Shown piece by piece: positions 43,947 through 63,924 of a stretch of 64,000 nucleotides of DNA. Origin of the DNA: Tranzscheliella williamsii (Eukaryota; Basidiomycota; Ustilaginomycetes; Ustilaginales; Ustilaginaceae); contig JALBYF010000031.1 of assembly GCA_023212725.1 (NCBI GenBank), forward strand, positions 146,369 to 210,368. Reading direction: 5' to 3'. The translations under genes were made by a program, and so were the position numbers. The notes beneath the pieces were generated by a model. The model worked only from the letters and a program-made list of their open reading frames with translations. It was not told the origin of the DNA and did not search any database. Numbering within the stretch: the first letter of the stretch is position 1; each line of letters starts with the position of its first letter.

Positions 43947-45761
43947 ATGGCTGCCCAACCTGAAGTATTCGACTACATCGTTGTCGGTGGAGGCACTTCT
44001 GGGCCCGTCGCAGCTCGAAGGCTCGCCGAGTATCTGCCCAAGGCGCAGATTTTGCTGCTAGAGGCTGGCCCACGGCACGAGAATATTATGGCATCTAGCA
44101 TGGCTATGGGCTGGGAAGGAATTCACCACAGCCGCTGGGATTGGAAATACACCTCCCAGCCCATGGCAGGCGCCAACCACCGCCAGATCCACCTCCCCAG
44201 AGGCCGTTTCCTAGGCGGTTCCTCCGGAGCCAACGGCACACTAATGCTCCGTGGCGTCAAGAACGACTACGACCGATATGCTGCCATGGGTAACGCCGGC
44301 TGGTCGTGGCAAGATGTGCTGCCTTTCTTCAAGGAATCAGAGTCCTTTCACGGCGACCGCGAACATCTCCCCTTCGACGCTCGCTACCACGGCGACAAGG
44401 GTGCACTGCACACTTCCTTCCACCACCTGGCACCTATCAGCCAGCGCATCGTCGACAGCTTCTTGGCCACAGGCTTGGAGTGGAAACCGGACATGTTCTC
44501 CACCGGCGAGACTCAAGGCGTCGGTCACGTGCCCAGGACTGTCTATCAAGGCAGACGCACCAGCGGCGCTGACTTTGTTTCCGGCGTTAACGTGCCTTCC
44601 AACCTCACCGTGCGATGCAACGTACAGGCGACCAGGATCGTTATTGAAAAGAGGCCGAACGGAGGAAGCGTCGCCACCGGCCTTGAAGCCAGAGACGATG
44701 ACACCGGCGCGCCGCTCCTCTTCCAAGCCAATGCCGAGGTCATCATCTCGTGTGGCGCCTATAATAGCCCTCTACTTCTCATGCATAGCGGCATTGGCCC
44801 GCGAGAGGAGTTAAACAAGTTCAACATTCCCGTCCAGGTCGAGTCGCCAGCAGTGGGTAACAACCTACAGGACCACATCATTACCTTCAATTTCTTCAAC
44901 GTTTCGCAGTCTAGGCTAACCAATGACCATCTGGTTTACGACGAAGGCGCTCTTATGACCGCCTTGACAAGCTGGATGGCGGACAAAACCGGAGTGATGG
45001 GGCGTTTCCCCTTTGGTGCCTTCGTCTTCCGTCGACTGGACAAGGAGATGGAAGCCTATCCGGAGTGGGTAGATGCGAAGAAAAAAGCGAAAGGTAAGGA
45101 CCCAGTAGGCGCTCAAAAGGGCATGCCTCATGTCGAATACTTCTTTACAGAGCTTTATGGTGGCGGTCCGCAGCATGTCCATACCCCGGGCCCGGGCCAG
45201 TCCGCCTTTGCGGTGATCACGCTCTTGCTGAATCCACAGGCGCGCGGCACTGTGAAGCTGCAGAGTCGGAACCCGCTATTCCCGCCTGCCATCGATCATG
45301 CCTATCTGTCCAATGCGCTCGACTTGGCGGTGCTCGCCGAGGCGAATCGCTTTGGCGCCCAGGTAATCCTTGAAGGGTCTGCCACCAAAGAAGTTGTCAC
45401 CGGGCCATGGCCTACCAATCGAACATTGCCCAAGTCGCAAGAAGAGTGGAAAGAGTATGCGCGCCAACAGGCCGGCACGTGCTACCATGCAAGCGGGAGC
45501 TGTGCCATGGGCGCCAGCAAGGCGCCCACCGCAGAATTGCCGTTCGGCTCCGTCGTCGATCCACGGCTTCGCGTGCACGGGGTGCAGAATCTCCGTGTTG
45601 CCGATACGTCCATCCTCCCGCTTGTGAACACGGGCCACACGCAAGCGCCCGCCTATATGATTGGAGAGAAATTGGCTTACATGGTCGCCCAAGACGCAGG
45701 CGCTCAGCATTTGCCTGCACGTCTTGGCCACAAACCCCAATTAAGTGCCGCTCACTTGTGA
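43947..45761 (+). CDS. GMC-family FAD-dependent oxidoreductase
   Basis: 604 residues, intron-free. The frame is open from 43818 but has no ATG before 43947, which also places the FAD motif near the N-terminus: YIVVGGGTSGPVAARRLAE from residue ~9, then LLLEAGP. GMC signatures are LPRGRFLGGSSGANG, an ISCGAYNSPLLLMHSGIGP-type GMC-2 motif, and the catalytic histidines His514 (CYHASGSCAMG) and His564 (NTGHTQAPAYMIGEK). The family oxidises alcohols, sugars, choline or aryl alcohols, passing electrons to O2 or a quinone. No signal peptide is seen, so it is probably intracellular, unlike secreted aryl-alcohol oxidases. Its substrate is unknown. It opens the accessory block of redox enzymes. Confidence 0.92.
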   Translation: MAAQPEVFDYIVVGGGTSGPVAARRLAEYLPKAQILLLEAGPRHENIMASSMAMGWEGIHHSRWDWKYTSQPMAGANHRQIHLPRGRFLGGSSGANGTLMLRGVKNDYDRYAAMGNAGWSWQDVLPFFKESESFHGDREHLPFDARYHGDKGALHTSFHHLAPISQRIVDSFLATGLEWKPDMFSTGETQGVGHVPRTVYQGRRTSGADFVSGVNVPSNLTVRCNVQATRIVIEKRPNGGSVATGLEARDDDTGAPLLFQANAEVIISCGAYNSPLLLMHSGIGPREELNKFNIPVQVESPAVGNNLQDHIITFNFFNVSQSRLTNDHLVYDEGALMTALTSWMADKTGVMGRFPFGAFVFRRLDKEMEAYPEWVDAKKKAKGKDPVGAQKGMPHVEYFFTELYGGGPQHVHTPGPGQSAFAVITLLLNPQARGTVKLQSRNPLFPPAIDHAYLSNALDLAVLAEANRFGAQVILEGSATKEVVTGPWPTNRTLPKSQEEWKEYARQQAGTCYHASGSCAMGASKAPTAELPFGSVVDPRLRVHGVQNLRVADTSILPLVNTGHTQAPAYMIGEKLAYMVAQDAGAQHLPARLGHKPQLSAAHL

Positions 45762-46076
45762 AGGAGGGACTACAGTCGTGCCACCACTACCCTTTTCTCT
45801 CATTGGTCCATCGAAGCTTTTATCTGGTGCGCTTGTAAAGGACAAGCTAAAAGGCTAAGCAAGCTTCAAGGAGGCCGGACTTCAACTCAGACGAGCCAAA
45901 ATCACGCCAAGACCCTGGCTGCGGTGTCTCTGCAAATCCGATCGGACTATTCCATATTGCCGACCTTCATTCACACTCTGTCGCTAACAGTCGCTCGGTG
46001 ACTTGGAGCAAATTGACATGATAGCACTAGCGCATACACAGATTTATGGCCAGAGTGCTTGGCTATTGCTTGCAGA
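45762..46076. other. Convergent spacer GMC oxidoreductase / MDR reductase
   Basis: 315 bases holding the 3' ends of two converging genes. No further feature seen. Confidence 0.6.
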
Positions 46077-47075
46077 CTAGAGGCCTCGGACAACAATCTT
46101 TCCACCAGCGTCTCCCGAGTCCAGCAATTGGTGCGCCTTGCGGATGTCTTCGTAGTCGAACACGGCCGTAGGCTGTGCCTGCCACTTGCCCTGCGCGATG
46201 CTGCGGCAGATCTCTTGGAAGGGGATGGCTGCGAGAGGGAACTTGTGGGTGCCGAGCTCCTTGCTATGAAAAAGGCTGAAGTGGACGCCAGACTCCATCT
46301 GGAGCATGGGGTTGAAGTCCTGGACGGGCGCGAGACCGCCGAGCCATCCAGCCTGGAGGATGCGCCCGCCAGTTCGAGTGAGGGCGATGGATTCCAGTAG
46401 GACGCTGTTGCCGATGAGGTTGAGCACCTTATCGAAGGGCTGCACGGACGCGCCGCTGGAAGTAAGCTGGTCCGCGAGGTGGCGCGACTCGACTTTCACG
46501 TCGACCGCGCCCATGTCGGTCAGTGCCGCGAATCGCTCCTTGCGGCGTGTGGTCGCCGTCACGCTGGCACCGGCCTGCACCGCGAGGTTCAACGCCGCTT
46601 GTCCAATGGTCGAGGTGGCACCGCGGATCAGGATCGACTCGCCGGCTCGTGTGTCCAGGATGGTGTGGATGGCCGTGTAGGCAGTTGCATATGTCTCGGG
46701 CAAGGCGGCCACCTGCTCCCACGGCAAATCGGTATCAATGGCGGCAACGTTGGAGACCGGAGCGTTGACGAACTCGCCGTAGCCGCCCGGTCTGTTACGA
46801 CCCATTCCGCCCATCACACCTATCACCTTCTGTCCTGGCGCGAACTCGCCAGAAGGGCAGGCCTCTACGACTCCGGCGCACTCGAGTCCAGTGATGGGAT
46901 TCCATTCGTCCCACTCGCCCTTGCGCATATGCAGTTCGGCGTGGTTGAGACCAAAGGCTTTAACTCTGATCAACGCAAAGCCTTCCTCCGGATGCGGCTT
47001 AGCTACCTCCTTAATCTCGAGGACGTCCGGGCCACCGAACTTGGTGATGATCACTGCTTTCATAGTCTGCGACAT
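46077..47075 (-). CDS. Zinc-free MDR-superfamily quinone oxidoreductase-like reductase
   Basis: 332 residues, intron-free, typical length for the quinone oxidoreductase (QOR) branch. The N-terminus MKAVIITKFGGPDVLEIKEV is followed by a GroES-like domain with GLNHAELHMRKG and ITGLECAGVV. The Rossmann motif is RGATSTIGQAALNLA (about residue 150). The cysteine ligands of zinc alcohol dehydrogenases are not seen at the usual places, so no zinc is expected. Such enzymes reduce quinones, enones or other activated double bonds with NADPH in the cytosol. Many fungal copies work in secondary metabolism or detoxification. The substrate is unknown. It starts at ATG 47075 and faces a 1.5-kb divergent region toward the alpha/beta hydrolase gene. 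Confidence 0.9.
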   Translation of the reverse strand: MSQTMKAVIITKFGGPDVLEIKEVAKPHPEEGFALIRVKAFGLNHAELHMRKGEWDEWNPITGLECAGVVEACPSGEFAPGQKVIGVMGGMGRNRPGGYGEFVNAPVSNVAAIDTDLPWEQVAALPETYATAYTAIHTILDTRAGESILIRGATSTIGQAALNLAVQAGASVTATTRRKERFAALTDMGAVDVKVESRHLADQLTSSGASVQPFDKVLNLIGNSVLLESIALTRTGGRILQAGWLGGLAPVQDFNPMLQMESGVHFSLFHSKELGTHKFPLAAIPFQEICRSIAQGKWQAQPTAVFDYEDIRKAHQLLDSGDAGGKIVVRGL

Positions 47076-48594
47076 GGTTGTTATGAGGCCCAGTGATGGC
47101 GTAGGCAGGCTTCCTTTCTGGAGTAATTTTGTATGAGCAGCGTTGTCTGGGACTGTTTGAGTGGCTTCCAGATTCCACTTCCCTGCTCTCGTAGCTCATT
47201 CATATACCCGTCATAGCTACAGCGGACGCCTCTGGGCGCGCTGTATGTGCTTTGCAACGCACCTCGGCCGTCAGGCCGGCGCTTGCTGTCCGGAAATATC
47301 TCCCCTGTCTAGTAGTTGCCATAGATGGTGGTGTGCACTCGGAATACTTTGGTTAGACCCGCGGACATCGATGACGCTTGCTGGTCGGTGTAGGCAGTAC
47401 AAAACCGAACAAAGCCGCATGCCGGCAAGCCAACCGTTGTTAGGCCCACTGTCGGTTAAACTCGCAGCCTGTCACAGTGTGCAGAAGCCCGTCCATGCAT
47501 AACAATGGCATCCAACTTGACTGGTTCGCATGGCATCCGCCGTGCGCATTCGGAAAATGTTTGGATGTTTTTCTTGTATGAGCCAGGCCTATATCACGAA
47601 CGCTGCTCTTGCGAGCGCCGGCGGGGCTTAGAGCTGGCTTCACCGTCGCCCGGACGCTGCAGGTACATGTCGCAGTGCGGGCGCCGTGGAAGTTGTGCCC
47701 GCGTCACGCTGTCCACCAGTCCTGAATTTCTAGCGAAGGTGAGGGCAGTCCTAAGCCCGATTACCTGCCCGTTGCTTCAGATCACCCGCAAGCAGTGGCC
47801 GGGGTTTAGGCTTGGCTTAAACAGAAAACCTCCGACAACATATTTCAATGTGATGTGCGGTTTTCTCCATCTCCGTAAAATTGCCGAACCAGCAGAAAAA
47901 ACATAACATCACCGAACCCCGCCTTTGCTCAGCAGGCGAGTGCTGGAGCTCGACAGTCGAAGTATACTCTGGGCTCCTGGCGGCGTCTACAGCTTGTTTG
48001 TGGGGATACTCACCGTCGTCTTTTTGCTGGCATCCGTACCGCTGCCATCATCTCACTCCTTTTATCAGTGATGGAGCCGGCTCCGCGTCAATAGTAAGCT
48101 TGCATTGTGCGCCGACCTCAAACCTGCACAACTTAGTTGCAGCGACTTGGTCTTTTGCTGTGTTCGAAAGCGGGACTATGGACTACAATGCCTCCCGTCC
48201 ATGACGTTGCAGGTTACGTCCGTGGCGTACACCAAGTTGAACAGCGACGACCCTATAGGCGGCATGTTGGCGCATGTTGGCACGTCACCCACGGAAATAT
48301 CTTGGTTATCTTGGATTTGGTCAATATCGCGTTAACTCCATCACTGAATTTTGCACCGACGTCACCAAGCCTTCCAGCATGAACTACATCAAGAATAACG
48401 ATGGCAAGACTCATTCGCAATGGGTATGCTGCAGGACATAACAGGACGGCGATGAGTGCATAAAAAGCAGTGACCTTGTTAGCCAGATTCGCTTCGCCAT
48501 CCGCATCCAAGCCTACATCCACCGTCGCTTCCGCACACAAGCACAATCACATAACTATCTGGCTTACTGACAGATAAGCTGCGAACCTCTTACC
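47076..48594. other. Divergent region MDR reductase / alpha-beta hydrolase
   Basis: 1.5 kb. No gene is supported. The leftward frame at 48253-48546 reads somewhat protein-like but starts with TTG and has its first ATG far inside. A CCGCGG palindrome occurs at about 47358. The rest shows no structure I can name. Confidence 0.5.
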
Positions 48595-49464
48595 ATGACA
48601 AGCCCATCGTCCATCAGCGTTAATCGGCTGGCACTTCCGGATGGCACCTCCCTCTTCTATCGGCATGCCGGCGAGACGAGCAAGCCGCCGTTCTTGCTGC
48701 TGCACGGCTATCCTGCCAGCTCGTTCCAGTTCCGCAATCTGATGCCGATTCTTGCGCAGGACTTCCACGTCATTGCACCCGACCTTCCCGGCTTTGGTTT
48801 CACAACGGTGCCACAAGGATATGAGTTCACCTTTGACAACCTGTCCAAGTCCATCGAGGCATTCGTCGATACGCTTGGCATCAAAACACCCTTCCCGGTG
48901 TATATTTTCGACTATGGTGCGCCGACGGCGTTGCGTATCATGCTGCGGAGGCCCGAGCTGTTCTCCGCCATTGTGTCGCAGAACGGCAATGCTTACGACG
49001 CAGGCTTGGGTCCAGCGTGGGAGCAGTTCGGCATTCGCGCCTATTGGCGTGATCCCTCGCCTGCGAACCGGGACGCCCTGCGTCCGCTCCTCAACCTGCA
49101 AAACACCAAGCTGCAGTACGACCTCGGCCATCCCAATCCGTCGTCCATTCCCCCCGAAACGTACACCCTAGACCACTGCATTATCAACCAGAACGTCGAC
49201 GCCATGTTGGACCTCTTCGGCGACTACAAGAATAACGTCGCGCTCTACCCGCGCTTCGCAGAAGCGTTCCGCGCCAACAAGTCACTCCGTGTTCTCGCCA
49301 TCTGGGGCAAGCACGACGTGTTCTTCATCCCACCAGGAGCACATGCCTTTACAGACGATGTCGGCTCGGACCGCAGCAAGGTGGTCGAACTGGACAGCGG
49401 ACACTTTGCGCTGGAAAGCCACAACGACGTGATAGCTGACGAGATCCGACGCTTCTTCCTGTAG
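48595..49464 (+). CDS. Alpha/beta hydrolase with aspartate nucleophile (haloalkane dehalogenase/epoxide hydrolase-like)
   Basis: 289 residues, intron-free. The oxyanion-hole motif HGYP is at residues 37-40, and APDLPGFG follows. The nucleophile elbow reads VYIFDYGAP with Asp106 where lipases and esterases have Ser, so the class is dehalogenase/epoxide hydrolase-like. The catalytic His is about His270 (DSGHFALE), and an Asp in WGKHDVFF is a candidate acid. These enzymes open carbon-halogen bonds or epoxides through an ester intermediate. The true substrate here is unknown. No signal peptide is present. The length and the LPG(F/Y)G motif match soluble bacterial relatives, and these genes are often passed between bacteria and fungi, but nothing here proves transfer. 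The start is ATG 48595. Confidence 0.9.
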   Translation: MTSPSSISVNRLALPDGTSLFYRHAGETSKPPFLLLHGYPASSFQFRNLMPILAQDFHVIAPDLPGFGFTTVPQGYEFTFDNLSKSIEAFVDTLGIKTPFPVYIFDYGAPTALRIMLRRPELFSAIVSQNGNAYDAGLGPAWEQFGIRAYWRDPSPANRDALRPLLNLQNTKLQYDLGHPNPSSIPPETYTLDHCIINQNVDAMLDLFGDYKNNVALYPRFAEAFRANKSLRVLAIWGKHDVFFIPPGAHAFTDDVGSDRSKVVELDSGHFALESHNDVIADEIRRFFL

Positions 49465-49887
49465 CATCTTGTAGCCGCATATCTAGCTGTTTTTATGTTT
49501 CGTCGTGTGCTAAAATCTGAATGTAAATGGTCCTAGCCTCTCTAATCTGCAGTACGCTTTGTGAAACGTTCCCTCAGCCGTACACTTGAGATATGCCAGG
49601 CCAATGGCAACGAAGTATAAAGGCATAGCATAAGCTGATGACAGAGGGACGCGCCTGGTTTCTTTTCGATCAAGCCAGATCATTTGACACGCAGGGCCGC
49701 TAGCACACCATTGCTCAAGCACAGAGATGGGAAAGCTGCAACACTCGATTAGAAATGCATGCCATCCTCCTATTTGATCCGCGGAGATGTAGGGTAGCGC
49801 AAGCCACCGCCATGCTCGATGGTATCTTTCACCTTGCGAGCAATTAGGTCTTGCAAAGACTCTGCCTGGTTCAAGCCTTGGTCTTGT
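49465..49887. other. Spacer downstream of hydrolase
   Basis: 423 bases between the hydrolase stop and the remains of the DUF4267 gene. The leftward frame at 49510-49722 has no recognisable product. Confidence 0.55.
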
Positions 49888-50292
49888 TCAGATTGCCAGC
49901 AACAAGGGACCGATGATGGTCTAGAGGGGCGCATAGCTCCAGTGACCCCACTCTCCTTCCCGGCCAGCCAGGGTATGACGCCATTCGCAACTGCGACTGC
50001 GCTTGCCGCCAGGTTGATGAAGTCCAAAGTGTTGGGGTCGCCAGGCCAAGCAGCGGCATACATGACTAGACCCGTGAAAATATCCCTCACGCTAGACAAC
50101 CATCAAGTTGTCAACCAGCCTCTTGTCCGCGGCAGCGGCTGGAGGCACGAACTCGTAAAAGTTGAGAACGTAATCTGGGCGGACGACGGCATTGATACCA
50201 AACCCAATATATACAGTAGATGGCTGCAACGGTGAGAATGTCACACTTTTATTTCGCCACAGCAGAAACAAGGAGTGGCACCTTACATGCAT
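49888..50292 (-). pseudogene. Degraded DUF4267-family small membrane protein gene
   Basis: Reading leftwards, family-like sequence appears in three frames. A possible 2-codon first exon (ATG 50292) and a 63-nt intron lead to VYIGFGINAVVRPDYVL and a DKRLVDNLMVV end stopped by TAG at 50094-50092. One base over, the frame continues SVRDIFTGLVMYAAAW and INLAASAVAVANGV. A second shift near 49946 is needed to reach HWSYAPL, which then meets TAG at 49923-49921 before IIGPLLLAI and a TGA at 49888. DUF4267 proteins are ~130-residue, four-helix membrane proteins that end in a similar WxYAP element. Two frameshifts plus an in-frame stop argue for a pseudogene. Short introns or sequencing errors are the alternatives. 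Confidence 0.55.
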
Positions 50293-50575
50293 TATGTGGC
50301 TTCGCTACGTGCGCGTCTGAGCCGCCTAAGCAAATTGATCAACTCAATCAGATTTCAAGAGCGTGCGACTAAATACATAACCTTTCTACTTCCTGCGAAT
50401 TGTAGTGTTGCAGTGACCTGGTATTCAAGGCGGCACTACTACTATGGTGCTTTATAAAACAAAGGTCCTGAAGATGCCTATGATCGCTGGAGTTCTATGT
50501 ACCGGCGTGAAGCTCACCAAATGGCGAAATTGAACCGGTGTCTCCGGCCCAGACGTCGTCATGTGTCATGACGAA

Positions 50576-51646
50576 TCAAGGTGCCAGTGCGGCCTCCATG
50601 GACTCAAGCAGGCTAACTTGTTTGGGCTGCCAGCCGAGGGCTTTCGCCTTCTTACTAGGCGCCAGGAAGGAGTTCCCGCCAAACATGTAGATCTCGCCTT
50701 CGCCATCGCCAATCTCAATGGCTGAAGGCTTGCTGATGTCTCCTCTGGCATGGAGCAAGTCACCCAGTGTCTTGGTGACCGACCCCCAGGTATGCTGGTC
50801 GGCACCCGAATAGATAAGTGTCTGGAAGCCATGAGAGCTGCTTGACGCTGTTGTTTGCTCAGGATGTTCCAGCGAGAACTTGATGACGGCGAGATACAAG
50901 TCGGACAGGTCCTCGACGTGGACGTTGCCCCAAATGTTCTCGCCTTTACCGATGTATGCGGCCTGGCCATTCTTCTTCGCGTACTTGACGTACGCTGGAA
51001 GCTGAAGGGAAAGCTTGTTGCCTGGTCCAGTGCCAGGTCCGTACACCGTTGGGCTGAGGATTGTGTAGGCCGAGATGACTCCCTTAAGAGCAGCAGCGGC
51101 TACCAATTTATAACCGCCATAGAAGAAGGCTTCGTTTGAAAGCGAACTCCAACGATCATACTGCTCATCTGTCCACACGTCGGTTCCCGCTTCGCCGTTG
51201 GCGCCATACATAACCGTTCCCGATCCACCAGTGTGCAAGAACAAGGGCTTGCCTCCAGTGGCTTCTGCCCGTGATTCTAAGCCCGTAATCAGAGCACCAA
51301 TGCTGGCCTCGTCTCCACCGAATGCGACAGCAAAATTGAGGACGATATCATGCTCAGAGGCAAGCTTCTGGAGTAGATCCAGATCCTCGCGAGAGCCATG
51401 TTCGGTAAGGACGCCAAGTGGCCTGAATAGCAGCTTTTGTTCTGGGTTGCGGACCAGGACGGTGATGTCACTGGCCTGGTTGGTTTTGAGGAGATTGGTA
51501 AGTACAGTCCCTAGATACCAAAGTCAGACAATTTAACGTCAAGTGTGGTCAGATCTTGCCACGGGGGATATCACTGAAACCTCTCCGTACCTACCCCCAA
51601 TGTAGCCCGTAGCGCCCAACAGCAGGATTTTGGAACTGGCAGCCAT
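50576..51646 (-). CDS. Extended short-chain dehydrogenase/epimerase-like NAD(P)-binding protein
   Basis: Two exons read leftwards, 51646-51595 and 51510-50576, with an 84-nt intron (GTAGGT...CTAG). The 328-residue product begins MAASSKILLLGATGYIGG-TVLTNLL, so the intron splits the GATGYIGG Rossmann motif. Later elements are LHTGGSGTVMYG, the active-site-like YGGYKL, SPTVYGPGTGPGN and GNVHVEDLSDLYLAVI, typical of extended SDRs (NAD-dependent epimerase/dehydratase or dihydroflavonol-reductase-like). The substrate is unknown. It shares a 419-base divergent promoter with the zinc-cluster regulator, so the two are probably controlled together. The stop lies ~280 bases from the DUF4267 remains. Confidence 0.87.
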
Positions 51647-52065
51647 CTTGGTAAGTGTAGTTCAGGGAGGGTTAGCTAGGTATGGAAAGCTTTGATGGAA
51701 TTGTGGTGATGTGGCCGCATCTTTCACTCCTCACAATCATGGTGGATTTTATAGCCTTTCTATTTGTCTCTGTAAGTGGTTCTTGCGGTTGTCTCTGGAG
51801 GAAGTTCTTTCGATGTAGGTAGGAGGAGGTTCTGGCTAGCTATGTCGCTCGGGCGCGAGTTGATTACGGTCCCTGCTAAACTGTGGGCTTGTGAGCGTGG
51901 AAATTCGCGCGAAGTGGTGCGAATTGGTGCGAATTGGTGCAAATTGGTGCGAATTGGTGCGAAATCGTCCGATGTGGTGCGGTGGGACCCTTCCACTTAA
52001 ACCGCCCGAGTTACTAACTGAGTGACGATCCATACTGCTTTATCCACCTTCTTCACTTGCCTGGC
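51647..52065. promoter_or_regulatory. Divergent promoter of epimerase-like gene and zinc-cluster regulator
   Basis: 419 bases between two ATGs (51646 leftward, 52066 rightward). It contains seven consecutive 10-bp repeats at 51911-51980, nearer the regulator. This makes autoregulation or co-regulation plausible. Confidence 0.6.
51911..51980 (+). repeat. Seven 10-bp tandem repeats, consensus GAATTGGTGC
   Basis: Units in order: GAAGTGGTGC, GAATTGGTGC, GAATTGGTGC, AAATTGGTGC, GAATTGGTGC, GAAATCGTCC, GATGTGGTGC. The core three are nearly identical and the outer ones degenerate. A 10-base period places each unit on the same face of the DNA helix. The array ends 85 bases before the regulator ATG. 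Confidence 0.9.
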
Positions 52066-54120
52066 ATGCAGAACGGTCAGCGCTATACTCCGTTGGCCAA
52101 GCGCATGCGGCTCGGAACGAGGAGCTGCGCAGAATGTAGGCGAAAGAAAGTCCGCTGTATCATCCAGCCTGGACAAACGCAATGCGATAGCTGTGTCGCT
52201 CATGGAACACCTTGCCATGCTCAGCAGCCCAAATCCTCTGGAAGCGTTGCGCCATCCAGTGGTAGCGACGATACTCTCAAATCACGGCTATCGGCAATCG
52301 AGGACCTGCTAAGCAAGCTCAATGCGCGCGAACAGGCGTCCACCCCGTCGCTGAGACCGCAGCTTGTACCCAAGACCGCATTTCTACCGAGCAAGGCGCC
52401 AATTCCAGCCCAAGACGGCAAAAGGCCTTCGCTAGCATGGAACCAGCGCTCTCTCTCGTTTCTTGTTGATGTTGCGCCTGGCCCAAACGTTGGTAATGGC
52501 AGGACCGGAGTATCATTGCTAGACCTCATCAAAGACGCCAACCTTGTTCCAAAGTTGGACAAAGGGCAGCAGCAGCATTCCCTCAACTTGTCGTCCCAAG
52601 TGAGAATACAGGAAGTGATTAGGTCACTAGCGGATCTGCTTCCTGACAAGGAGACCTTGCAAGCAGCATTCACCGAGTCCAACCCGTTCTGGAGTACCTG
52701 GCCGCCGTGTCACTATGGCAAAATCCCAGAAGAAGTTCTTGGTCTAGGTCACCAACTGCAGGCAATCGATCTTGTGTACTCTTCCTTTCAGTCACAGCAG
52801 CCAGCTTCCATTGCCAAGGCAATCCTTTTTCTATGTTTATGTCTCCAAGGACTGCGAGCAAACAGCCCGATATGGATACTCCTACCGCCCTCTGCCACCT
52901 TGCTAAACGAGTATGTCGATCTCTCGTCGACGCTCTTGAGCCTAACAGCCGATTTCAGCCAAGATCTGGATGATTTGGAAGCCCGGATGCTACTATTTAC
53001 TCTTTGTCTCAACATGGGCAAGCCTCGGCTAGCATGGACCGCAGTTAGAGGCGCCATAGATTCGGCGATGCTACAAGGCATACATCGGGTAGACAACAAC
53101 TTGGATATGACCAGAATCTGTCTCTGGGAGATGATGTGGCAGGGCGAGCGACTCTCCGCCGCTCTCTTGGGCATGCCGTGCTGCATATCAAACTCGCATC
53201 CAACCATCGCATCAGGCCCGATTGGTGACACGCTTGCTGAGACGATCAAGCATCACATATTCCGCATCAGTGGTGACGTTATAGATAGGGACCAATGTCA
53301 CTCTTCTCATCCCAACTATGCAACTACTGTCCAACTGGACCAAGAGTGCGCTGCCATACGAGCGCTCATGCCCGCGGAATGGTTCGATCCCACGCCACAG
53401 ATGGACATGTCTGTCGGCTCACTCTACTCCATGCAATGCCTGAAGATCAAGTACTCTCTCCTTGTAAAGCAAATCCACCTTCCATGGATGCTAAAATCTA
53501 CAACGGAGCCCAAGTATCAGCACAGCCGGACGATGGCTCTGAGCAGTGCACGAGATCTTATCTCTGCATACCTGCAGCTGCGAGGCAACCCCAAGACTGA
53601 ACTCATCATCTGCGAATTCATGGACTTTGAGGCCTTCAGCTCGGCCGTTAATCTCATCGTCGGCATTCTGTCAGAACCCCAAAATTCCCTTCCAACGGCT
53701 TCTGAAGTGGCAGATTGGACGCTTGTGCAGCAACTGATTCGATCGCTAGAGTATACTGCCGAGTGTCTTGGTTGCATGATCGCAGCCCAGAGCGCCCGTG
53801 TCCTTGATTATCTGATAAGGGCCTGCTACGGCGACACTAGCATTCCCAACAAGATCGAAACCTTCATCCCTTTCTTCGGCCTTGTCCGCATCAACCGAAT
53901 CGCAGCGTCCCGAACAGCAGTTTTGACTGACACCGATTCTTCCAACGCACTAAGCTCTATCGAATTCAGCGCAAATATATTTGATCCAAACTTACCGACA
54001 GGATTTGCTTTTGGTGATGAGCTCAAGGTTGACTGGACAAGTCTTGTAGATACTGATGCTACATACGACTGGTCTCAAACGTTCTGGCCGAACGGACTTG
54101 CCCATTCTGACAGCACCTAA
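52066..54120 (+). CDS. Zn(II)2Cys6 fungal transcription factor
   Basis: 684 residues, no intron. The frame is open from 52057, but its first ATG is 52066. The zinc cluster near the N-terminus reads CAECRRKKVRC followed by CDSCVAHGTPC, with six cysteines in Cx2Cx6Cx8Cx2Cx6C spacing. A basic stretch KRMRLGTR precedes it. A weak leucine-rich segment (IEDLLSKLNAREQ) near residue 85 may be a dimerisation coil. The middle has fungal-specific transcription factor domain features (LCLNMGKPRLAW, ALLGMPCCI). Such proteins bind CGG half-sites and often govern adjacent metabolic genes. This is the only regulator in the accessory block and faces the epimerase-like gene, so it is a candidate pathway-specific activator. 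Confidence 0.93.
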   Translation: MQNGQRYTPLAKRMRLGTRSCAECRRKKVRCIIQPGQTQCDSCVAHGTPCHAQQPKSSGSVAPSSGSDDTLKSRLSAIEDLLSKLNAREQASTPSLRPQLVPKTAFLPSKAPIPAQDGKRPSLAWNQRSLSFLVDVAPGPNVGNGRTGVSLLDLIKDANLVPKLDKGQQQHSLNLSSQVRIQEVIRSLADLLPDKETLQAAFTESNPFWSTWPPCHYGKIPEEVLGLGHQLQAIDLVYSSFQSQQPASIAKAILFLCLCLQGLRANSPIWILLPPSATLLNEYVDLSSTLLSLTADFSQDLDDLEARMLLFTLCLNMGKPRLAWTAVRGAIDSAMLQGIHRVDNNLDMTRICLWEMMWQGERLSAALLGMPCCISNSHPTIASGPIGDTLAETIKHHIFRISGDVIDRDQCHSSHPNYATTVQLDQECAAIRALMPAEWFDPTPQMDMSVGSLYSMQCLKIKYSLLVKQIHLPWMLKSTTEPKYQHSRTMALSSARDLISAYLQLRGNPKTELIICEFMDFEAFSSAVNLIVGILSEPQNSLPTASEVADWTLVQQLIRSLEYTAECLGCMIAAQSARVLDYLIRACYGDTSIPNKIETFIPFFGLVRINRIAASRTAVLTDTDSSNALSSIEFSANIFDPNLPTGFAFGDELKVDWTSLVDTDATYDWSQTFWPNGLAHSDST

Positions 54121-54426
54121 GGGCAACTGAAAGGGGACAATGTCGAAGTGATCTTTCCAGCAAATGGCGAGCGTGTCGAATCTGCAAGGCGCTTATCTTA
54201 TCTTTCTTTTCTTGATTCTACAAGTGGCGAAGGCTGTAGTTCTCTGCGGCTGGCCACGCAAGGAACATGCTGGTTGACACTCTGATTTCTTCTCATCGCC
54301 GCAATATCAGCACAAACCCAGAGTGCTGGTTATTGAAAGCCGTCACATGCTTAGGGTCCCAACAGGCAGTAGCTCTATGATAGAGGGGCAGAACAAGCTA
54401 GGAGTATGCAGAAAGCCGCATCACGT
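54121..54426. other. Convergent spacer regulator / DUF1772
   Basis: 306 bases holding the 3' ends of two converging genes. No further feature seen. Confidence 0.6.
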
Positions 54427-55209
54427 CTAGGGACGCACAAATGTGTAGACGGCGGTAACAAAACCGAGGAAGGCAGCAGTCACACGAACGTTGTGCAGCA
54501 CCGCCCAGTGGCGTAGTAGACCATCCACTGTGGTCTCGTCAACAGCTCCGCCGCTGTTGGCCGTGCGTCGGAGTGCCACGAGCTTGTCATTTACCGGCTT
54601 AATCACCAGCAACTGTGCACCATCGCCGCGGAAGACATCATGTAATGGCGCCAGCAGCAAATGTTATGGGACGTGGGAAGTGGAAATAGAGCGTCAAGGT
54701 CAGCAGTGGGCAACGATGGTCAGGGGTGGACAGATTCAAAAGGAGTGTTAAAGCGATATGTCACCTACCGTGAAAGGGATGTGCGTGAGCAGCAAGCCAG
54801 CAGCGGTGTACAGGAGGGTGCTGGCGCTCTCGCGCTGGCGCAGACCGACTAGAGCGGGGCCGTCCAGTCTGATAAAAGTGAAGAAACTCAGAGCGGTGAT
54901 AACGTCAAGCGCCGGGAGGCAGGCGGCGCCCAGACTGTACGAGCGATTCCACAGCGTCAGACGTTGGGCGATCTTCAGATTGGCCGTCTCGGCGGCCGGC
55001 GGAGACACCTTGATCCCCTGCTTATCCAGGAAGCTGCTACTGATAAGGAGCGGATACGCCATTGTCAAGCCTGTAACGTAATTCAGGCCGGCTGGCAAAG
55101 GTTAAGCAGTCGTCCGCGCGCGAGTGTAGCAGCGATGTTCAGCGCAATGCTTACCGCTCACGAGACCGGCACCGGTGAGGCCTACAACGGCACAGATAGG
55201 AGCCAACAT
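54427..55209 (-). CDS. DUF1772 (anthrone oxygenase-like) small membrane protein
   Basis: Three exons read leftwards, 55209-55155, 55091-54769 and 54612-54427, give 187 residues. Introns are 63 nt (GTAAGC...CCAG) and 156 nt (GTAGGT...ACAG). Joins keep frame and yield GAGLVS-AGLNYVTG and THIPFT-LLVIKPVNDKLVAL, a continuous DUF1772 pattern. Hydrophobic segments at the N-terminus, middle and C-terminus suggest four membrane helices. The tail WAVLHNVRVTAAFLGFVTAV matches the family's conserved W..HN.R element. Some DUF1772 proteins (HypC/TpcL type) oxidise anthrones to anthraquinones in polyketide pathways, while others are uncharacterised. No polyketide synthase is present here, so an anthrone substrate is not implied. 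It lies next to the regulator gene, tail to tail. Confidence 0.85.
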
Positions 55210-55742
55210 GTTGGTCAAGCGCAGAAGCTGTTGGTAGTGTACTGAAACCCTAAGGCGACGATGAGAACGAGCAAGGAGAGCGGGAGGAGCCAACCTTTAT
55301 CCACTCTCCAGTATGGTGTCCATTTCTGCGTCAAAAATTCCTGAAACATCTTTTCTTCAATAATTTGTAGGTTTTACCGAAGTCATTGACCTGTCAGCCA
55401 CGGGACTTGAGTGTCAGAGCAAATGAAGTTGCTCCGGTCTGTGGTTCCTGGCTCCTCATCTCCCGTGGAACGCTCAGCCAGTTTGTGTTAAAGCGACTCG
55501 GCTAGCTTTTCTCGCACGGTTCAACTCGAAGACGTCGGTTGTTTCCTCCTAAACCATGCGCACTGCCTTGCGAGTAAAAGGCAGACAAGCGGGCTTAGGG
55601 CTGACTTCACCTTGGCTAGGCGGAGACCAAGGGCTGGAGCGTAGCGATGGTGAAGGAAGCCCTTTTCTCGATAGGGTTACAGGAACGTTCACATACCGCT
55701 GCGGTGGTCGGATCGGCTGTTCAAGCGTGGGACTTTCTCCGT
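55210..55742. other. DUF1772 promoter and VOC gene 3' flank with hairpin
   Basis: 533 bases. An inverted repeat runs from 55598 to 55662: GGGCTGACTTCACC pairs with GGTGAAGGAAGCCC at 12 of 14 positions, and an inner CCTTGG (55610-55615) pairs with CCAAGG (55627-55632). It lies 80-145 bases past the VOC gene stop (in that gene's reading direction). It may be part of its 3' end. No other gene is visible. Confidence 0.5.
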
Positions 55743-56150
55743 TCATCCCGAGGTGCTGTGGGCATCTTGGCACACAACTTCCACATTGACGCCATCCAGG
55801 TCCAGCACATAGGCAGCATAGTAATCGGGATGATAGTGCGGGCGAACCCCAGGTGGGCCATTGTCGGTCCCACCAACCTCGAGCGCGGCTCGATGGAAGG
55901 CATCGACGATGCGTCTCTCTTTCGTAGCAAAGGCAATGTGGGTGCCGCTGCCTGGCACGTCGTTGTCATGAATCCAGAGTATAGGGTAGCCGTGCTTGCC
56001 AAAACCGTGGCGTGTTCCCGCTGTGCGGGTTCGCTCGGGCCTAACCGTGATGATCCGAACAATGTCCAAAGGTGCCAGAGCATGTTCGTAAAACCGTCTC
56101 GATGCTTCGGCGTCGCGCACGGCAAATTCAATGTGGTCGAGGATAGTCAT
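55743..56150 (-). CDS. Glyoxalase/bleomycin-resistance (VOC) superfamily protein
   Basis: 135 residues, intron-free, a single VOC domain. The frame extends to a TTG at 56171, but ATG 56150 gives MTILDHIEFAVRDAEASRRFY, the standard VOC start. Candidate metal ligands are the His of LDHIEF, the His of THIAFAT and the Glu of GVNVEVV. VOC enzymes include glyoxalase I, extradiol dioxygenases, epimerases and drug-binding proteins; small single-domain ones like this often act as isomerases, cyclases or lyases. The true reaction cannot be read. It lies in the accessory enzyme block between the DUF1772 and saccharopine-dehydrogenase-like genes, all three read leftwards but with separate promoters. Confidence 0.88.
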   Translation of the reverse strand: MTILDHIEFAVRDAEASRRFYEHALAPLDIVRIITVRPERTRTAGTRHGFGKHGYPILWIHDNDVPGSGTHIAFATKERRIVDAFHRAALEVGGTDNGPPGVRPHYHPDYYAAYVLDLDGVNVEVVCQDAHSTSG

Positions 56151-56920
56151 CGTTGTTAAGCTGCTGCCCAAGTAGTCTGAAGAAAGGTGATGTGGTTAAA
56201 TCCAGTCACAAGTGCTGCGCGAAAGTGTTGCAATAGGGGAGTTGAGCGTCTCTCCCTGCGACTCAGCCCGAACAAAAAAGCGGAGGCATAGGAATGTCAG
56301 TCCGCTGCATGTGGCGGAGATAAACCATGCATCGCCACGGTGAGTCCTAGGTGGAGCGTACCTCCGGCGAACGAATGCGCTTGACAAGCCCAGGACCTTG
56401 GCAACATGTTGCGGAAGCTTGAAGCCGTACGTGTTTTGTGTCGAAGAAGATTGTGTTGCGAGTATTCCAGTAATCCGGCTAAGCATTGGCGGAGTTAAGC
56501 GAAGCTTCGTCACCGGCCCCCGCTTCCGTTCCGAGAAATTGTGACTTGCTGCCACGCTTTTCCGTGGGATGATGGGAGCCTTCCGTCGCACTTGGCTGTA
56601 TGGCTGGCGAGTCCAGCGGCTGCATTTACAAGCGGACGCTTCTTGATGTCCAACTGGGACGTTGAGGAAATCATGGCAAAACGGGCGGAATTTGACATCG
56701 ATCCAGAACTTTGCTCAACCACGCCGAAACTCTGAACATAGGGGACGAACCACTCCTTACCTGCTACCGTGGAAGCGAATCACGATGTATAATTCCATGC
56801 GAACGTGAAGCTTGCAGAGGCGTCTAACGCTGCCATATTGACAAGGAACATACAACATTGATAGTGGTAAGTTGCGGACACCAAGGGGCGCGTGTCTGAT
56901 CTCCCGAAGGTTCATTCCGA
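56151..56920. other. VOC promoter and reductase 3' flank
   Basis: 770 bases. A leftward open frame (56196-56591) begins with GTG and encodes a possible hydrophobic stretch (about 56290-56340), but I cannot link it to a family. It could be a gene relic. No clear promoter element seen. Confidence 0.5.
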
Positions 56921-57913
56921 CTACAGGTCTTTGATATGTGAATTTGCAATGGTTTCAACAAATCCAGTCCCAAAGACAAGTACCGGCGTCTGGAAGCCAG
57001 CCCGAAAGTCGCCCGACAAGACGCGGCCCGCAGCCACGACAGACGCCATTGCCGTGAAAGTGTACCCGTTCAACGTGTGAAGTACGGCACGGCTAAGCGC
57101 CCCATCTGCCGCGGTAACGGCGACAGCAGCGTGATACGGGCTAGCCTCCCTCTGTTCCTCCGTTGGTCCGTCTGGCAAGCTAGCCAAGTCTCCGGTTGGG
57201 AAGCCATCACCAGCGGCGTGGACAAAGGTACGGATGTTGGCGACTTTGGTCGATTTCCAGATCGTGATGAGATCAGGCAGCGTCACCGGATAATTAATAA
57301 CGCTGCCTCGACCGTTGTCAAAGTCGAGCTGGATGGTATTAGCAGCGTCTTGCTCGACGAGCTCTCCGTCCAGCCGCTGCAAACATTTCGTGGACATGTT
57401 CTCCGACGCGCTGATGGCCGATCCACGCGAGATGGTTCCATCAACATATAGTGAGATATCAATGCTGACAGGATCTTCGACGCGCTCAACAACATGGCCG
57501 GCTAAGCAGCCTAGCATGACCACGCTGCCGCCGCATCCCGGCAGGAGCATCACATTGGCATCCTTCGCACTGCGGTCATTCAGCTCTGATAGCTTGTAGC
57601 TATCCAGCTCCGCGGCTGTGTCCAGGTAATGCACGCCGTTGCGGATGCAGGCTGCGATCAAAGGTTCGGCAGTGCGCATGAAGGGACCCGCACAATTGAG
57701 CAAAACGGAGACGCCATCCAAAGCCGAGTCGACCATCGGGGCTTCGCTGACGTTGAAGAGGCGATATGAGATGCCGAGCTCGGAAGCGAGCTCCTCGATT
57801 TTGCTACTTCCAGCACGTCCGGCCACAATAATATCAAGACCAAGGTGCTTGGCGTGGTAACTGGCCATGCGGCCAGTATAGCCAGCGGCGCCATAGATCA
57901 GGAGTGCAGGCAT
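56921..57913 (-). CDS. Saccharopine dehydrogenase-like NAD(P)-binding reductase
   Basis: 330 residues, intron-free, starting at ATG 57913. The N-terminus ALLIYGAAGYTGRMASYHA is a Rossmann motif typical of the saccharopine dehydrogenase/trans-acting enoyl reductase group. It is followed by LLNCAGPFMRTAEPLIAAC and NGVHYLDTAAE, strongly conserved in this group, and LLPGCGGSVVMLGCLA. The protein is shorter than the ~400 residues of many members, with an abbreviated C-terminal half. Members act on lysine intermediates or, as trans enoyl reductases, in lipid and polyketide pathways. Lys9/Lys1 housekeeping roles are unlikely because the sequence is of the divergent small type. The substrate is unknown. 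It marks the telomere-side edge of the accessory enzyme block. Confidence 0.88.
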   Translation of the reverse strand: MPALLIYGAAGYTGRMASYHAKHLGLDIIVAGRAGSSKIEELASELGISYRLFNVSEAPMVDSALDGVSVLLNCAGPFMRTAEPLIAACIRNGVHYLDTAAELDSYKLSELNDRSAKDANVMLLPGCGGSVVMLGCLAGHVVERVEDPVSIDISLYVDGTISRGSAISASENMSTKCLQRLDGELVEQDAANTIQLDFDNGRGSVINYPVTLPDLITIWKSTKVANIRTFVHAAGDGFPTGDLASLPDGPTEEQREASPYHAAVAVTAADGALSRAVLHTLNGYTFTAMASVVAAGRVLSGDFRAGFQTPVLVFGTGFVETIANSHIKDL

Positions 57914-58111
57914 GGTGCTGCTGAGGCTTCGTCTGTGTGATTATCTGGCAGCCGGTTGCTTTAATGATGTGGTAGAGGTAAAACTGCGACTTGAGAGTAC
58001 ACATAGTTATAGACAATCGTCTCCTCTCTTCCACATCTAGGTTGAGACCTAAGCTTCTCAGCATTTACGGTTGATCTTTTTCACCTAGCAGGGGCAAGGC
58101 TGCATAGAAGC

Positions 58112-58275
58112 CATACCGTAGACCTCCGCGGGGTCCAAGGGCTGTGCTCAGCTTCGTGATTTCGTGCTTTGAACCATAGCATAGATCTCCGCGGCTCATT
58201 TTATTACTTTCGTGCTTTGAGCAATCTCGACGTAGATCTGCGCGGATTACTTACACTGGTGGGCTTTGAAACAAC
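58112..58275 (+). repeat. Three degenerate repeats with CGTAGAYCTSCGCGG and CGTGCTTTGA words
   Basis: CCGCGG occurs at 58126-58131 and 58189-58194, and GCGCGG at 58240-58245, each preceded by (C/G)(G/A)TAGAYCT. CGTGCTTTGA follows at 58163 and 58211, and GGGCTTTGA at 58261. Spacing is about 63 then 51 bases, so the units have drifted. Confidence 0.6.
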
Positions 58276-60389
58276 CCAAGCGTCTTCACCAAGCGATATG
58301 GCGCCGGTTCCTGCCAAGTTGTGCCGCACCGAAGTTACTGAGCTGCGTCGCATCTACAGCTCAGTGTATACATGTTCTGGCCTCATCGATGATCGCAGGT
58401 TCTGTCCAACACTAAAGTCCATTTGGGCACAGGCCCGCAACGATGCAAGGACGGTCTTTCACCACATTTGGCTTCAAGTCAAGCATCTTTCGCGCTTGTT
58501 CACTACTATGGTACTGAATACATTGTCCGTTACTTGCCGACCGTCCATTGTGGCTTCTGGTGCAGATGAGCTATAGCTAGATGCAGCATAAAAGCTGGCT
58601 AATCCGTTGTCAGAAGAGGGGATGAGCTTCCCGGGCAAGTGACGTGGATGGCGATACCAGACAGCGAACGGCAAGTAGAGGCACTCATTTCGATCGGAGT
58701 TGAGGCAGCGGAGAAATTGCCAAGTGATGATGGATGGCGAACCAACTCCTGTCTGTCTGGCTTGCTTCCCGTTGCACTACTAATGAATGTGGGGAATGGT
58801 TTTAACACATCAGAGGTGGCTCAGCGAGGAAAGGAGACCCTGCTTTGTCGGATGCGCGTTGTTTCTCATTTACGGGGTCACAATCTGACGTCGTTTGAAT
58901 CAGGAGTTGGGCCTAGCCTGCTTCCTGTGAACTGCGCATTTGTCGGCCACACTCTGCCATTTCGGTGGCACGAAGCGGAGATGGGCATACAACTGACTCT
59001 TCGTTGCTCTGAGCACGTGAACAGTGCAACCCCTCGGAGACGCTGGCACTGAGTTCAGCATTCTATGTGGAAGGGTAGTTTGAGTTTGCTACCTTGGCGC
59101 GGGCGGAATCAAGGTGCCGTACTGGGCCGAATGATAATCATACCGCCAAAAGGATGTTTGAACCTTGGCAAGCACATCCCAGCAGTAATCCAGACTGGAC
59201 ACGGCAAGAAAGCGAGCACGTTCCATTATGGTAGAACGGGAGAATAATGTCGGCGAATGCCAAGATCCATTGCTGCGGGGTTAAAGCGGAAAGGAGGTTT
59301 CGAAATCTGCCAGAACCGTGGCGTCCTGTTCTTCATGTTACGACGGGACAACTTTCGACGCTAAAAGTGCGCGGCTTTTTCCGCCACGGGGTTGGCCGCA
59401 CATCCCATCTCGCCTTAAGCCTCGCGAGATCTCAGCAATGCTCTAACGAGCGCCACCTTCTGCAAGCGAACGGTCTTCGCTCGGAGAGTTTGAAGCGCCA
59501 CAAGATGTCCACAGCCGAGCTGACTGTCTTTGCGCTCGCTTCACCTGATTTGATTGGATGCCACCGCAATTCCCATGGCTACGCACGTCCTTGTAGGCGT
59601 GGCGATCTCTTTAGCCCTCTGCTTCCGCTTCTGAACGAGCACTGCTTCTCGTCAATGCCCAATTATGGAGAGGTTCTGAGGACCTTTACAGCTCATTTCA
59701 CAAACGGAGGAATCAGATATCGGCAGCTTCGACGAAACCCCAGCAGAACGGTAGTGGACGAGCGACGCTATGATTGCTTTCATTAGGTAAGAAATGGCGG
59801 CAGCATGCATGATATCCACTTGTGTCACACCAGCGAAATCGAGGCTTAGATCTTGATCGGATAAACGCAATTGGTTCATGCATCTGAATTGATAGCGGGC
59901 CGCTTCCTTCAGCTCCAAGCCACCTGCAACGAGCGGGGTACTGCTGTTTGGCGCATGAATGATCTGCTTGGAGCTGACCAGATGCCGTTAGCGGCGATTC
60001 GATGTCTCAGCCCCTTTCCTGCTCGTCTACGCCGCTTCCGTGTCCTCCGACAAGCTTGGCTTCTCGCCTCGACTACAGCTCGGCAATCTTCATGGGCAGC
60101 TCTCATGGAACCCAATTGTGATTGTTCAAGGGTAATCTGCCGGTAAGGGAGCGCATCGAGATGTCCGGAAGAACAAGTAGCGGTCACACGGCGCTCCAGA
60201 ATGTAGAGCCGAGCTGAGGATCTATGGGCACAACTCTGCAATCTCGTTGGTGCGGTCGGAAGAATACAGTAGGTCAAGATATTCCTCTTCTCTCGATCGC
60301 CCGCGATAGACTTGCTAGCATCTCATGAGCCAGGCGCCAGCTGCTCACACACGGGAACCTCTATGCTGCAGTGCCGGCTAGATGGCATC

Positions 60390-60398
60390 TATATATAA
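60390..60398 (+). promoter_or_regulatory. TATA box of the cutinase gene
   Basis: TATATATAA, about 125 bases upstream of the cutinase ATG. A strong TATA element suits an inducible secreted enzyme. Confidence 0.6.
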
Positions 60399-60520
60399 GA
60401 AGGGTCCGGTTCACAAAGACGATCGTGATCCCCCAGCACGCACGACCTCTCACCCTAACTCCTCCCACGGCGAACCCTTCCACCTCATCCCTACGTCTTC
60501 ATCCCCAACCTCGGCCAACA

Positions 60521-61198
60521 ATGGTTTCTGGTTTCTCCTTCTGGACTCTCCTCGTGGCTGCCCTCGGTGCCGCCACCGCCACTCCTTTACAAAAGCGGGC
60601 CCCTTGCTCTTCGTATGTCGTGATCAGCACGCGAGGCACCGGCGAGGTGCAGGGTCCTTCTGCTGGATTCCGTACCATGAATTCCCAGATCACCTCCTCC
60701 GTCTCTGGTGGCTCCGTCTACAACACTGTATACGCTGCTGGAGCCGATCAGAACTCAGCCCTTGGTACCGCCGATATCGTCAACAAGATCCAGTCCACCC
60801 TTGGCTCCAACCCCGCCACCTGCTTCATTCTTGAGGGTTACTCGCAGGGCGCTGCCGCTACCTGCAATGCCTTGCCCCGGCTCAGTGGCGACGCATTCGA
60901 CGCAGTCAAGGGAGTCGTCCTACTCGGCAATCCGGAGCACAAGCCCAACCTCGCCTGCAACGTCGACAACCGTGGCGGCTCCTCTACCATGGCCGCTTCT
61001 GGGATTTCAGCGGCCTTCAGTACCGGTGTTCCCAGTAACTGGGTCAGCAAGACGCTTGACATCTGCATTGCCGGCGATGGTATCTGCGACTCTAGACACG
61101 GCTTTGGCATCACGGCACAACATCTCGCATACCCCTCTGACAGCCAGGTACAGTCCATGGGCTCCCAGTTTGCCATCAAGGCCCTCCAAAACAACTAG
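60521..61198 (+). CDS. Secreted cutinase-like enzyme
   Basis: 225 residues, no intron. The frame extends to 60371, but the ATG at 60521 gives a clean signal peptide (hydrophobic core about residues 6-20) followed by a Lys25-Arg26 Kex2-type site, leaving ~199 mature residues. The fold signature is ISTRGTGE, then the nucleophile elbow GYSQG with Ser108, then Asp186 in GDGIC and His201 in QHLAYP. Cys182 and Cys189 should form the disulfide flanking the Asp. The sequence closely resembles the cutinase-like enzymes (CLE/PaE type) of basidiomycetous yeasts, which hydrolyse short-chain esters, plant cutin and aliphatic polyesters. It is extracellular and probably serves leaf-surface growth. A TATA box lies ~125 bases upstream. 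It sits only 2.8 kb from the telomere array. Confidence 0.95.
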   Translation: MVSGFSFWTLLVAALGAATATPLQKRAPCSSYVVISTRGTGEVQGPSAGFRTMNSQITSSVSGGSVYNTVYAAGADQNSALGTADIVNKIQSTLGSNPATCFILEGYSQGAAATCNALPRLSGDAFDAVKGVVLLGNPEHKPNLACNVDNRGGSSTMAASGISAAFSTGVPSNWVSKTLDICIAGDGICDSRHGFGITAQHLAYPSDSQVQSMGSQFAIKALQNN

Positions 61199-63347: not shown

Positions 63348-63924
63348 GAGGAGCGCTCCCAAACTCGTTCGTGACCCGGCGGTAGATCGTACCGCCTGTC
63401 TTCCTGTCACCAAAGATCGGCCTAGTGTCTTCCCGCACCGTGCAAGTGGAACGCCAGCCGCCTGTGACTATTTTCCTCCCTCTGCGTCCAGACAGTGGGT
63501 ACTATCCGGCCAAGATTCGACGAAGAGCGAGGCAGAAAGAAGGGTATGGCAGCGCCTTAGCATCCCGATTGGACAATAGTTGCTGGGTTTTCGATTGACA
63601 TTTGGGAAATGATATAGGCGCCCCTAAACTTGTTAAAGGTGCCACTCCACTCGTTGCCCAATTCATGAACATAAGGGGGTTGATATAATCACGGCATTTT
63701 TTTAGGGAAATTATACACCGACATAACTTCTTGCTAACCCGACCGAATTTCCTGATAGGCAATCTTGTGCGAAACAAAATCACACCTTCGCTTGCTAGGG
63801 TTGGGTTTGTATACCAGCCGACTGTCATTATGGGTCTGCTCAAAATACAACTTGGTGAGTGGCAGATACAAATTGACAGCGGTAGTTACAAGATCAGAGC
63901 GGTAGCCACAGTTCTGAGGCTGCA
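63348..63924. other. Subtelomeric DNA between NiCoT gene and telomere
   Basis: 577 bases. After the NiCoT 5' flank, the stretch from ~63,570 is AT-richer with T-runs (around 63,699). A leftward 113-codon frame (63502-63843) begins without clear coding features. The 21-base word shared with 43247-43267 lies at 63604-63624. No helicase or transposon remnant is recognisable. Confidence 0.55.
63604..63624 (+). repeat. 21-bp word shared with the NAR1-GMC spacer (copy 2)
   Basis: GGGAAATGATATAGGCGCCCC, 20 of 21 identical to 43247-43267, about 300 bases from the telomere array. Confidence 0.5.

Follow-up and report, generated by a model that had tools for sequence, protein, structure and literature searches.

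A probable patchwork of accessory metabolic genes, including a VOC gene nested in a bacterial clade, at a chromosome end of Tranzscheliella williamsii

Eight adjacent genes near a chromosome end of the smut fungus Tranzscheliella williamsii are probably accessory metabolic genes that make up a subtelomeric patchwork, not one conserved eight-gene cluster. They lie in a window of 64,000 nucleotides, the whole stretch of DNA analysed here, which runs from position 146369 to position 210368 of its contig; the contig is 210368 bp long and the genome has 18.18 Mb in 135 contigs. The genes encode a GMC oxidoreductase, an MDR reductase, an alpha/beta-hydrolase (HYD), an extended SDR, a Zn2Cys6 transcription factor (TF), a DUF1772 membrane protein, a VOC protein and a saccharopine-dehydrogenase-like reductase (SACC). 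Such a patchwork would have three parts: a fungal core of HYD, SDR and TF, with a divergent promoter between SDR and TF and, in one other smut, consecutive locus numbers for the relatives of HYD and SDR; SACC and VOC, as kin of genes that are neighbors in an often plasmid-borne bacterial group; and GMC, MDR and DUF1772, which may be mere neighbors of the other genes. The strongest new results are that VOC sits within a clade of bacterial sequences, that SACC likely descends from bacteria as well, and that the relatives of the two genes have a common neighborhood in bacteria.

Bacterial relatives of VOC and SACC

The window VOC is 72-82% identical in amino acid sequence to VOC proteins of Halomonadaceae, with nucleotide identity of up to 78%, and matches at E<=1e-35 occur in 7 of 81 Halomonadaceae genomes. 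In a tree of 27 rows it is nested inside the Halomonadaceae (support 98/92), and among the sequences compared it sits inside a bacterial clade. The window's proteins were the only fungal ones included in the VOC and SACC trees; protein-database homologue listings covered TF, SDR and HYD. Between the window VOC and six Halomonadaceae VOC genes, nonsynonymous divergence (dN) is 0.106-0.141 and synonymous divergence (dS) 0.90-1.75, while the comparison with the VOC of a Vreelandella locus (L097) gives a dN of 0.197 and a saturated dS of 3.4. The resulting dN/dS ratios, which as pairwise values include the bacterial branch, are low and resemble those among the bacterial copies, so that VOC seems, on sequence grounds, to have been kept functional.

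SACC was searched against GTDB with one genome per species. This returned 71 relatives from 69 loci; most are proteobacterial and a few mycobacterial, with identity of up to 60% over the full length (61% in the tree alignment). In the SACC tree the window protein falls within a 26-row clade (100/100) of bacterial sequences, mainly of alphaproteobacterial and mycobacterial types, with no finer placement given by the tree. Judging from these relationships, SACC is probably of bacterial descent.

The relatives of both genes occur together in a bacterial gene group of the form AraC/SDR-VOC-(NTF2)-SACC plus VOC-SDR/TetR, which is widespread and often plasmid-borne; examples are found on Pseudosulfitobacter plasmid pSMR1-3, on Rhizobium bangladeshense p3 and in Halomonadaceae. 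On pSMR1-3 the order is TetR, SDR-VOC facing SACC-NTF2-VOC-SDR, then AraC. At 65 of the 69 loci, one or another type of VOC gene is present near SACC. Within the Halomonadaceae, SACC (E<=1e-70) was found in 15 of 275 genomes, at least one of which (G001) had already been counted in the 69 loci (as L097), and 13 of these 15 carriers have a VOC of the window type no more than 5 kb away. Conversely, all seven of the 81 scanned genomes that contain the VOC have SACC within 5 kb. The same holds for seven of the top nine VOC matches on plasmids (H1-H6 and H9); for H7 SACC is about 67 kb off, and for the unannotated H8 none was present in the 12 kb read. Five genomes were picked for having both genes together, and in each of them the SACC-linked copy was the best VOC match genome-wide. 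A literature search aimed at the group returned no paper.

A bacterial sequence misjoined into a fungal contig would also explain a VOC/SACC stretch of this kind, and the nucleotide identity of VOC to bacterial genes is high enough to raise the question. Against such an error, the pair is flanked by the intron-bearing DUF1772 gene and a cutinase gene on a 210-kb contig with telomere repeats, the GC content at third codon positions of VOC (0.60) falls below that of nine bacterial copies (0.66-0.79), and there is no trace in 55100-60520 of the TetR and SDR genes that are usual near SACC and VOC in bacteria. We consider a misjoin extremely unlikely.

The locus and its fungal genes

The genes and other elements of the set are listed below.

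43947-45761, plus strand: GMC oxidoreductase, aryl-alcohol-oxidase-like (PF00732, 119.7 bits; PF05199, 113.1 bits)
46077-47075, minus strand: MDR, quinone-oxidoreductase-like (PF13602 and PF08240)
48595-49464, plus strand: HYD, alpha/beta-hydrolase with a nucleophile Asp (FDYGAP) (PF00561, 90.7 bits)
about 49880-50304, minus strand: broken DUF4267 pseudogene (PF14087, 29.3 bits in one frame and 17.6 bits in another)
exons 51595-51646 and 50576-51510, minus strand: SDR, extended, epimerase-like (PF01370, 46.4 bits; splice model)
51909-51981, no strand: tandem array of a 10-bp unit, holding four CCAAT boxes, within the divergent promoter of SDR and TF
52066-54120, plus strand: TF, Zn2Cys6 transcription factor (PF00172, 22.1 bits versus a cut-off of 21)
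exons 55155-55209, 54769-55091 and 54427-54612, minus strand: DUF1772 membrane protein, anthrone-oxygenase family (PF08592, 68.6 bits; splice model)
55743-56150, minus strand: VOC protein (PF00903, 26.1 bits versus a cut-off of 20.6)
56921-57913, minus strand: SACC, saccharopine-dehydrogenase-like reductase (PF03435, 43.9 bits)

Gene models and Pfam matches bear out the eight genes named in a preliminary description of this DNA, each scoring above the threshold of an appropriate Pfam family, with VOC and Zn_clus the weakest. The open frame of TF runs from 52018 to 54120, with its first ATG at 52066; SDR has one intron and the DUF1772 gene two. The inventory in that description was incomplete, having overlooked the frame-broken DUF4267 gene between HYD and SDR, whose Pfam-matching pieces lie in different frames of a six-frame reading. 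A Pfam scan of the intergenic stretches, which covered 20 translated frames with stops written as X (a selection from the six frames of the gaps), gave no match.

The window ends on the right in (TTAGGG)n telomere repeats. Genes for a PDR transporter, an RSN1-type channel, a SEN1 helicase, phosphatidylserine decarboxylase and an iron-hydrogenase-like protein lie to the left of the set. Its placement between housekeeping genes and the telomere holds as a chromosome-end position, but the set is not directly next to the telomere, since a cutinase gene (60521-61198, plus strand) and a NicO nickel/cobalt transporter gene (61746-63413, minus strand) lie between it and the repeat. The GC content of the block (0.546) is similar to that of the right flank (0.543; left flank 0.578), so the block does not stand out by composition at this chromosome end. 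A search of the published literature, judged by listings, found nothing on this locus.

HYD and SDR have relatives that appear to be linked in another smut. In Ustilago loliicola, the HYD match NDA16_002616 (63%) and the SDR match NDA16_002617 (64%) are both reported on a contig of 647158 bases and, from their consecutive locus numbers, would adjoin. Two further matches, P0051 to SDR and P0175 to HYD, are each on a contig of 4064 bases, and probably share one contig. Among the HYD matches listed, Ustilago loliicola is the closest named relative, and its protein falls with the window HYD in an 11-row fungal clade of the HYD tree (100/100), where the sequence nearest to the window's is P0169 (77%). 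The SDR tree, built from 35 of 120 listed matches plus the window protein, places the window SDR, P0058 and the Ustilago loliicola group in one clade (100/98), with Alternaria, Elasticomyces and Recurvomyces as sister (99/99); the tree tool flagged long outgroup branches. Within that clade the window SDR branches outside the Ustilago loliicola group.

The relatives of TF are of another kind. A homologue search scored 7996 candidates and listed 48, among which the nearest named one is from Neonectria ditissima (48%), with three others at 50-55%; the 23 named homologues belong to genera that we take to be Pezizomycotina ascomycetes. A quick tree of 27 rows groups the window TF with Neonectria and these three homologues (99). 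By these trees and listings, the distribution of HYD, SDR and TF is patchy, and the three genes may not share one history.

A decayed copy of the SDR/TF arrangement is present elsewhere in the genome, at C79:5111-5857 (L022), 5 kb from the start of that contig, where no telomere repeat was seen. TF residues 577-694 (numbered from 52018) are recognizable on one strand and SDR residues 112-328 on the other; the frames are broken and both 5' halves are gone, with the divergent orientation kept. A glycosyltransferase-90 fragment lies about 2.5 kb from this relic. For SACC, SDR, HYD, VOC and TF we found no intact close paralogue in the genome, other matches being either at <=33% identity, such as a 29% SACC match on C62 (L026), or the C79 relic itself; the SDR query in this search was the last 222 residues only. 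A scan of 11 of 13 other stretches of the genome gave, apart from the C79 relic, only family-level HYD and GMC matches on C49.

For GMC, MDR and DUF1772, this analysis found no tie to the rest of the set. The best solved relative of GMC is the aryl-alcohol oxidase 5oc1; its plasmid-borne relatives reach only about 35% identity, and the genome itself contains ten family matches. MDR has 2j8z as a solved relative and is up to 51% identical to proteins of Caballeronia/Paraburkholderia replicons. The DUF1772 protein scores well above the cut-off of its family (27.3 bits), which Pfam now calls Anthrone_oxy, making the corresponding activity a prediction from sequence; one further match in the genome falls below the cut-off, and the plasmids searched gave none.

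One cluster, chance or patchwork

The intergenic region between SDR and TF carries the array of a 10-bp unit, its four CCAAT boxes spaced ten bases apart. In the whole genome, with up to two mismatches allowed, four occurrences of the pattern lie here and two at a single site on C48, versus one occurrence for a reversed control. The C48 site, a weaker look-alike, is at C48:283628-283655. Control of SDR by TF through the shared divergent promoter has, in our estimate, about an even chance of being correct, and control of all eight genes by TF would be improbable.

The preliminary description had suggested that the eight genes may be one cluster acting on one compound, a proposal which is partly supported at best: we found no sign of a conserved cluster of all eight. 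In its fullest form, the proposal is a catabolic cluster that handles a single compound, aromatic or an epoxide, and is run by TF, with its foreign genes recruited. Seven enzymes or enzyme-like proteins do lie beside one regulator, HYD-SDR and SDR/TF are linked elsewhere, and no intact close paralogue of SACC, SDR, HYD, TF or VOC turned up elsewhere in the genome. The parts nevertheless differ in history, a broken DUF4267 gene sits among them, and no promoter motif common to the seven upstream regions was found beyond what shuffled sequences gave, which is not what a co-regulated cluster with a shared site would show. Linkage beyond this locus was seen in part, for HYD-SDR in Ustilago loliicola by locus number, for SDR/TF in the C79 relic and for VOC-SACC in bacteria, but not for GMC, MDR or DUF1772. 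On balance a true eight-gene cluster appears quite unlikely.

At the other extreme, the chromosome end may simply have collected unrelated accessory genes by chance, with VOC and SACC arriving separately and meeting later. Different nearest bacteria for VOC and SACC would fit such a history, as would the gene decay seen in the relics here and on C79. On the other hand, the pair's relatives lie within 5 kb of each other in most Halomonadaceae carriers of SACC (13/15) and most of the top plasmid matches (7/9), and since they are neighbors in bacteria it is improbable that the two met by chance in the fungus. In addition, at the Vreelandella locus L097 a VOC of the window type stands next to a SACC from the wider clade to which the window protein belongs, so that a mosaic donor is possible and such donors exist in kind. 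We therefore regard a purely chance gathering as unlikely.

Several observations weigh against the patchwork that we favor, or against parts of it. A VOC at least 50% identical to the window's is near SACC at only 7 of 68 listed GTDB loci. SACC is 58-61% identical to proteins of Rhizobiales and Novosphingobium, versus 47-54% for any Halomonadaceae SACC seen, and in its tree it stands apart from the SACC of the six Halomonadaceae with the closest VOC; with different nearest bacteria for the two genes, two transfers are possible. The 48 TF homologues listed include neither Ustilago loliicola nor any other named smut. For the upstream regions, a gapped CGG motif was best in 4 of 7 (60 shuffles: mean 3.5, largest 5) and an 8-mer in 3 of 7 (shuffles: mean 3.1, largest 4). 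Finally, the chemistry is read from fold and family alone.

We infer that the transfer ran from bacterium to fungus, and arrival of SACC and VOC in a single event is roughly a coin toss. A more specific scenario, in which a mobile bacterial piece with SACC and the second VOC entered the smut chromosome end once, beside a TF-run HYD-SDR unit, and was selected as a hybrid pathway, is fairly unlikely.

Predicted chemistry and comparison with known systems

The locus would most likely let the fungus hydrolyse and reduce some plant- or microbe-derived small compound; fold and family suggest, at most, hydrolysis and NAD(P)H-dependent reduction. The SDR of the window has triphenylmethane reductases as its sole solved relatives by sequence (8.5e-5 or weaker).

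The aspartate nucleophile proposed earlier for HYD is backed by alignment: D106 aligns with the dehalogenase Asp and, together with H270 and the HGxP motif (H37, G38, P40), is invariant in 28 aligned sequences, as are the tyrosines Y175, Y211 and Y218. The AlphaFold2 model of HYD (pLDDT 92.7) has the dehalogenase fold. Haloalkane dehalogenases have a halide-stabilising Trp after the nucleophile and an Asn/Trp after HG; alpha/beta epoxide hydrolases have an HGxP motif and a pair of tyrosines in the cap by which the oxygen of the epoxide is held. Similar to members of both families, HYD combines this fold with a nucleophile Asp, the His and HGxP, the last being the mark of alpha/beta-fold epoxide hydrolases. 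Unlike haloalkane dehalogenases, it has Tyr at both halide-stabilising positions, and it is 18-24% identical to the listed solved ones. Assignment as a haloalkane dehalogenase was rejected, HYD having DYG and HGY versus DWG and HGN in two alignments, and the halogenated substrate suggested earlier becomes less likely.

SACC belongs to PF03435, an NADP-binding domain family, by a clear excess over the cut-off of 25.1 bits, and its AlphaFold2 model reaches a pLDDT of 90.3. No PDB sequence matched it at E<=0.001. It shares its fold with carboxyspermidine dehydrogenases (TM scores of 0.75-0.80 by query length), but differs from them in its length of just 330 amino acids and in sequence, at 15-16% identity.

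In having metabolic genes directly beside a local regulator, the locus resembles co-regulated fungal metabolic gene clusters. If the patchwork is as we propose, it would be a well-bounded case of metabolic genes that adjoin in bacteria and again in a fungus, at a patchy chromosome end. It also brings to light a widespread bacterial gene group; bacteria, with their easy genetics, would then offer a place to look for the compound that is handled. Compared with that group, the window holds just SACC and VOC of its members: 15 queries for the others against 55100-60520 gave no match below E 0.045, save two VOCa queries that hit the window VOC. SACC and the second VOC of the group match the window genes over nearly the full length, and at six of the seven Halomonadaceae loci first compared SACC comes ahead of VOC with both genes on one strand, just as they are arranged in the window.

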